A model generated the notes under the pieces. The model saw only the letters and a list, made by a program, of their open reading frames with translations, had not been told where the DNA came from and made no database searches. Both the position numbers and the translations under genes were made by a program. Below, piece after piece: positions 26,496-26,784 of a DNA stretch of 64,000 bases. Within the stretch, counting starts at the first letter, position 1. Every line of letters starts with the position of its first letter. This DNA is from Thalassospiraceae bacterium LMO-JJ14. GTDB taxonomy: Bacteria > Pseudomonadota > Alphaproteobacteria > Rhodospirillales > Casp-alpha2. The stretch lies in NCBI GenBank assembly GCA_021555105.2, contig CP134604.1:558001-622000 (forward strand). The letters run 5' to 3'.

Positions 26496-26784
26496 GCCGC
26501 CTTAGCTCAGTTGGTAGAGCATCGCATTCGTAGTTTTAAATTGCGTCTCTGAGGGGAAACTCTTGGATGAAAACCCATCAAATTCGGGGAAACCTGTAAA
26601 ATGGCAATCCCGAGCGAAGCCCGAAAGGGAACGTGTAGAGACTTGACGGTGGGCGCCTAATCCAGCCATTTCGACTGGTATGGCGAAGAGAAAGTCCAGG
26701 CCACAAACGCCCGTTGGGCGGCAACGAAAGTTGTAGCTGGTATGAATGCGGGGGTCGGGTGTTCAAGTCACCCAGGCGGCACCA
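26496..26784 (+). tRNA. tRNA-Thr(CGU) split by a group I intron
   Basis: Exon 1 is 26496-26531 (positions 1-36) and exon 2 is 26745-26784 (37-76, CCA encoded). Joined, it folds into a standard 76-nt tRNA: acceptor GCCGCCT with AGGCGGC, D arm GCTC-AGTTGGTA-GAGC, anticodon stem TCGCA with TGCGG around loop TTCGTAA (anticodon CGT, Thr), variable GGGTC, T arm GGGTG-TTCAAGT-CACCC, discriminator A73. The intron lies between anticodon base 36 and purine 37. A normal tRNA search that assumes no intron could miss this gene. Confidence 0.93.
26532..26744 (+). ncRNA. Self-splicing group I intron (IC3-like), 213 nt, no ORF
   Basis: P1 is visible: exon CGT and intron AGTT pair with AATTGCG across loop TTA, giving the U-G pair at the 5' splice site after T36. 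The intron ends in G (26744). Core elements match the Azoarcus tRNA-Ile intron as I remember it: P at AATTCGGGGAAACCT (26581-26595), R at GTGTAGAGACTTGACGG (26633-26649) and S at AAGAGAAAGTCCAGG (26686-26700), where AGACT and AGTC make P7. No homing endonuclease is encoded. Class IC3 is inferred from the core and small size. Confidence 0.92.

Follow-up and report, generated by a model that had tools for sequence, protein, structure and literature searches.

The tRNA-Thr(CGU) gene of Thalassospiraceae bacterium LMO-JJ14, located at 26496-26784 on the + strand of the window (the whole stretch of 64,000 nucleotides that was analysed), is almost certainly a functional gene that contains a small group I intron belonging to the tRNA-intron family of alphaproteobacteria, and we infer that this intron is catalytic in vivo. 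The intron has a length of 213 nt (26532-26744) and is inserted between nucleotides 36 and 37 of the tRNA. The kind of intron is known and the host is new, and the intron stands within a natural series of re-targeted guides. The individual features are as follows:

26496..26531, + strand: 5' exon of tRNA-Thr(CGU), nucleotides 1-36, ending in the anticodon CGU (ARAGORN with introns; intact tRNA-Thr(CGU) of relatives)
26532..26744, + strand: group I intron, 213 nt, no convincing ORF (RF00028, 57.6 bits; U(-1)/terminal-G rule; intact homologues; ORF list)
26540..26545, + strand: internal guide sequence AUUGCG (pairing test; near-constant in the other Thr(CGU) introns)
26574..26579, + strand: 5' strand of P3, partner 26648-26653 (each of the six pairs kept in 43-45 of 45 relatives, with compensatory changes)
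26584..26588, + strand: 5' strand of P4, partner 26609-26613 (alignment of 45 introns; two-sided changes)
26614..26616, + strand: 5' strand of P6, partner 26632-26634 (G-C to C-G swap in relatives)
26640..26643, + strand: 5' strand of P7, GACU, partner AGUC 26693-26696, the guanosine-binding helix (paired in 45 of 45)
26654..26657, + strand: 5' strand of P8, partner 26682-26685 (paired in 44-45 of 45, many compensatory changes)
26709..26733, + strand: P9 region, two hairpins, the second capped by GAAA (alignment of 45 introns)
26744..26744, + strand: terminal guanosine of the intron (U/G boundary rule)
26745..26784, + strand: 3' exon of tRNA-Thr(CGU), nucleotides 37-76, CCA encoded (ARAGORN)

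Using ARAGORN with introns allowed we obtained a tRNA-Thr(cgt) with the exons 26496-26531 and 26745-26784 and a 213-nt intron at 36-37; without introns the program called no tRNA at 26496-26784, and a tRNA-Ala(CGC) was its only result for the window. An earlier note on this DNA had described exactly such a group I intron of 213 nt splitting tRNA-Thr(CGU) at 36/37 and had proposed a comparison with the Rfam model; the description holds, and cmscan matched RF00028 (Intron_gpI) at window positions 26526-26719 over the complete model (1-253 of 253) with 57.6 bits and an E-value of 5.3e-12, the gathering cut-off being 50 bits. No second Intron_gpI match is present in the complete 3.89-Mb genome. 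The joined exons give, as the note had expected, a complete 76-nt tRNA with the anticodon CGU in which all tRNA stems pair, and only 1 of the 76 bases, not located at the junction, separates it from the intact tRNA-Thr(CGU) of three related genomes. Because the intron and the 3' exon both begin with A, a slide of the intron by one base would be possible from the sequence alone; only 36/37 gives a U before the intron and a G at its end, and a boundary moved by one base would break this terminal-G rule. The ORF list contains nothing but short chance ORFs within the 213 nt, in agreement with the absence of an ORF noted before, and with no homing endonuclease gene among them the intron does not belong to the homing-type mobile introns.

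The gene is preceded by genes for a polysaccharide deacetylase and an unassigned 408-aa protein and followed by those for a Bax1-I family protein and an FtsX-type permease. A simple scan gave no sigma-70-like promoter, which is weak evidence in this taxon. A second tRNA-Thr(CGU) gene was not found in the complete genome, which encodes uninterrupted tRNA-Thr(UGU) and tRNA-Thr(GGU) and in which the Leu(UAA), Leu(CAA) and Arg(CCU) tRNA genes are intact as well. With tRNA-Thr(UGU) and tRNA-Thr(GGU) present, imperfect splicing may be tolerable for the cell.

At the 5' splice site the exon bases CGU pair with GCG at 26543-26545 to form P1, which AGUU/AAUU extends into the intron, and the 3' exon bases AAU form the three pairs of P10 with AUU at 26540-26542. 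This P1 contains the U-G pair (U36 with G26543) which the earlier note had recognised together with the terminal G (G26744); in the Rfam alignment P1 is placed differently from this manually drawn helix and pairs poorly. The helices P3, P4, P5, P6, P6a, P7 and P8 could all be placed on the intron and are paired in 43-45 of the 45 rows of an alignment of introns of the order Rhodospirillales, in which P2 is badly aligned and P9a is variable, with P3 and P8 showing several standard pair types across the 45 introns. The intron has the core helices P3-P8 with the P3/P7 pseudoknot by which a group I intron is recognised, and a chance match is excluded because of the E-value of the covariance model and the compensatory changes in P3, P4, P6 and P8. 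The free energy of the intron is ordinary (z -0.23, minimum-energy folding), a result that has little weight because the P3/P7 pseudoknot is beyond such folding. GAAA loops are present in L2 and L9, and P8 reads CCUAAU...UAUGG, one base away from the receptor CCUAAG...UAUGG that occurs exactly in 6 of the 45 relatives. From its size and tetraloops the intron likely belongs to subgroup IC3.

For splicing we propose that the fold of the pre-tRNA would bring the guide bases GCG onto the anticodon CGU and that a guanosine bound in P7 would attack after U36. The released 5' exon would next attack behind the terminal G while the AUU of the guide keeps the AAU of the 3' exon in place, and the product would be a normal 76-nt tRNA.

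The guide reads AUUGCG in eight of the nine Thr(CGU) introns tested and UUUGCG in the ninth. When each host's consensus junction was used to score the six bases at a fixed position, the intron's own junction was the best or joint-best fit in 46 of 47 introns, a count that is somewhat favoured because the guide position was picked as the best fit to the own host; the chosen position agrees with the sequence alignment. The summed guide fit was 229 versus a permuted mean of 162, and none out of 2000 permutations of the introns among the hosts reached a value as high. A scan over 35 positions gave the own host as best in only 27 of 48 introns because of chance pairing in P2.

An Intron_gpI match was found in 46 of 317 genomes of the order. 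After the exons had been redefined by the U/G rule, the hosts were assigned as Leu(UAA) at 34/35 (18 introns), Arg(CCU) at 36/37 (7), Thr(CGU) at 36/37 (6), Thr(GGU) at 36/37 (4), Leu(CAA) at 33/34 (3), Lys(CUU) at 35/36 (2), Thr(UGU) at 36/37 (2) and 34/35 (1), Arg(UCU) at 34/35 (1) and a Leu case that is degenerate. RF00028 and the guide-plus-exon pattern identify the same six Thr(CGU) carriers among the 317 genomes. ARAGORN with introns labels five of these six as Ile, and its labels Ile(gat), His(atg), Thr(agt) and Asp(gtc) in relatives were rejected, since the U/G rule identifies these genes as Thr(CGU), Arg(CCU), Lys(CUU) and Thr(UGU). From a scan of GTDB r220 (one genome per species) with a pattern of the guide-plus-exon type we obtained twelve hits, ten of them real; the hits in a Bradyrhizobium MAG (L100) and in Rhodoblastus (L104) are intact tRNAs and false positives of the gapped pattern. 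The ten real hits are Rhodospirillales-type records, some titled Alphaproteobacteria only, including a Magnetovibrio MAG and a Caenispirillum MAG, and five of them are, judging by equal lengths, contigs already contained in the order search. In total about eleven genomes carry the Thr(CGU) intron, i.e. about ten besides the window genome, with one copy cut by a contig end. In an even sample of the class 31 of 385 genomes showed Intron_gpI matches, and the introns with an assignable host reside mostly in Leu(UAA), Arg(CCU) or Lys genes and once in Thr(GGU), with no Thr(CGU) host outside the order among the classified introns of this sample. The numbers from the order, GTDB and class surveys are all lower bounds because the pattern and the filters are strict. 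Thus tRNA-Thr(CGU) is the uncommon host that the earlier note took it for, with the pattern in 6 of 317 genomes of the order. The suggested new insertion type has to be taken more narrowly, since 36/37 is already used by Arg(CCU) introns and about ten other genomes share the intron.

The survey also yielded additional host tRNAs of group I introns in alphaproteobacteria, with insertion sites from 33/34 to 36/37 and guides checked for those of the order. These are Lys (L074, L075, L168, L170, L180, L184), Arg UCU (L077), Leu CAA (L033, L056, L057), Thr GGU (L051, L067, L076, L079, L179) and Thr UGU (L032, L055, L060). A congener of the window's organism has a 33.6-bit intron in tRNA-Leu(UAA) with mismatched exons (L072, G062:C119), which may be a copy in decay or reflect an assembly error. 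A different group I intron of about 220 nt with another core is located in the D-loop of tRNA-Leu(CAA) (L034, G296:C51; L040, G083:C2; L044, G306:C104), where the gene reads GGAACTGGT, intron, AGACGCG... and the guide UUUGCC fits the junction between GGU and AGA. Gene finders mis-split these tRNA-Leu(CAA) genes, and to our knowledge no tRNA group I intron is known at this site.

Other DNA was also observed next to tRNA-Thr(CGU) genes in relatives. In L152 (1587-3050, G289:C7) and also in L098 a 5' half is separated from a complete intron-bearing tRNA-Thr(CGU) by a stretch of 1.4 kb with one tyrosine recombinase gene (PF00589), and this stretch is apparently an integrase element that uses the same tRNA-Thr(CGU) anticodon loop and restores the 5' half. 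In L151 (2540-2980, G054:C47) and L155 (3207-3020, G055:C139) the complete tRNA gene is preceded by units of about 187 bp, each opening with a tRNA-Thr(CGU) 5' half that ends in CGTAAGACA and having TGTGAATGATATGTGAATATA-like motifs in common; these units appear to be very small, non-autonomous kin of the integrase element.

For the history of the intron we reconstructed a tree from the introns minus their initial segment (P1 and guide). With two very long rows removed the Thr(CGU) introns form one clade (99/95), which is present in all of 200 bootstrap trees; with these rows kept, one Thr(GGU) intron falls inside the clade on a very long branch. The neighbour of the clade is, with weak support, an Arg(CCU) intron, followed by Leu(UAA) introns, and the branches that join different host groups have modest support. 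The clade contains two members of the window's family, and these do not group as sisters. In five of the seven other genomes of the window's genus tRNA-Thr(CGU) is intact and lies beside the same upstream gene; the remaining two, both incomplete genomes, gave no match. As the intron is absent from the same locus in five congeners, its patchy presence implies gain, loss or replacement of the gene, and the alternatives of vertical inheritance or help in trans offered by the earlier note are too narrow. Tentatively, the Rhodospirillales intron family may switch repeatedly among about eight tRNA hosts, endonuclease-free, by reverse splicing and a change of the six-base guide, and the Thr(CGU) clade may have been founded by one such jump out of the Leu(UAA)/Arg(CCU) group. 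A related intron residing in another tRNA of this group would once have colonised tRNA-Thr(CGU) with its guide changed and would afterwards have spread along with the locus, accompanied by repeated loss.

It is rather unlikely, though it would concern only the history and not the nature of the intron, that the intron arrived together with the whole tRNA gene or locus by transfer, possibly integrase-aided at the same anticodon loop, and not by insertion at the RNA level. Such an arrival would fit the T-arm type G[GC]GTG..CAC[GC]C common to all 15 listed intron-bearing tRNA-Thr(CGU) genes and the other tRNA bodies of the five intronless congeners, but this T-arm type also occurs in some of the family's intronless genes and may therefore be ancestral. 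In two relatives the intron-bearing gene has a tyrosine recombinase element or 5'-half repeats immediately upstream, whereas no 5'-half repeats were seen beside the window's gene and its position beside the upstream gene is conserved in the genus. That the intron has decayed, leaving a pseudogene that lost splicing and is tolerated because tRNA-Thr(UGU) can read ACG, is very improbable: although tRNA-Thr(UGU) is encoded and the distribution is patchy, all tRNA stems pair, the exons are one base from intact homologues, the core helices are intact with an RF00028 score above the cut-off, and the guide fits the host. An integrated element or spacer between two tRNA fragments, as might be suspected from the tRNA-Thr(CGU) 5' halves in related genomes, where other DNA of about 187 bp or 1.4 kb intervenes, can be dismissed, being refuted by the group I model match, the core covariation and the splice-site pairing.

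The intron-bearing tRNA-Thr(CGU) gene can be compared with several known systems. Group I introns of bacterial tRNA genes have been described in Leu(UAA), fMet, Ile(CAU) and Arg(CCU), and no earlier report of Thr(CGU) as host was found in the searchable open-access literature. The tRNA-Ile(CAU) intron of Azoarcus, the IC3 reference structure, shares the size class, the three-base pairing of guide and anticodon and the GAAA loops, and differs in its host tRNA and guide. The Leu(UAA) introns of the order are up to 82% identical to the Thr(CGU) intron, but they are inserted at 34/35 with the guide UUUGAG or AUUGAG, compared to 36/37 and AUUGCG. The alphaproteobacterial Arg(CCU) introns of Agrobacterium and Bartonella (BbgpI) are alike in being small and ORF-less, in the site 36/37 (in the numbering used here), in core sequences and class and in their sporadic occurrence; they differ in the host, in the guide (AUUGGG versus AUUGCG) and in forming a separate clade. 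BbgpI splices in vitro and in vivo (PMC7717549), and the title of Paquin 1999, cited there, describes the Arg(CCU) intron family as sporadic with evidence of transposition.

With this work tRNA-Thr(CGU) is added to the few tRNAs that are recorded as hosts of group I introns in bacteria, and intron-split tRNA genes of such kind are missed by tools in their default mode. The finding is valuable chiefly for the order's series of re-targeted guides, with about fifty homologous introns whose guides fit eight tRNA hosts. Given this natural series of guides and hosts, the arrival of ORF-less introns at new sites becomes testable by comparing cores, guides and empty sites.
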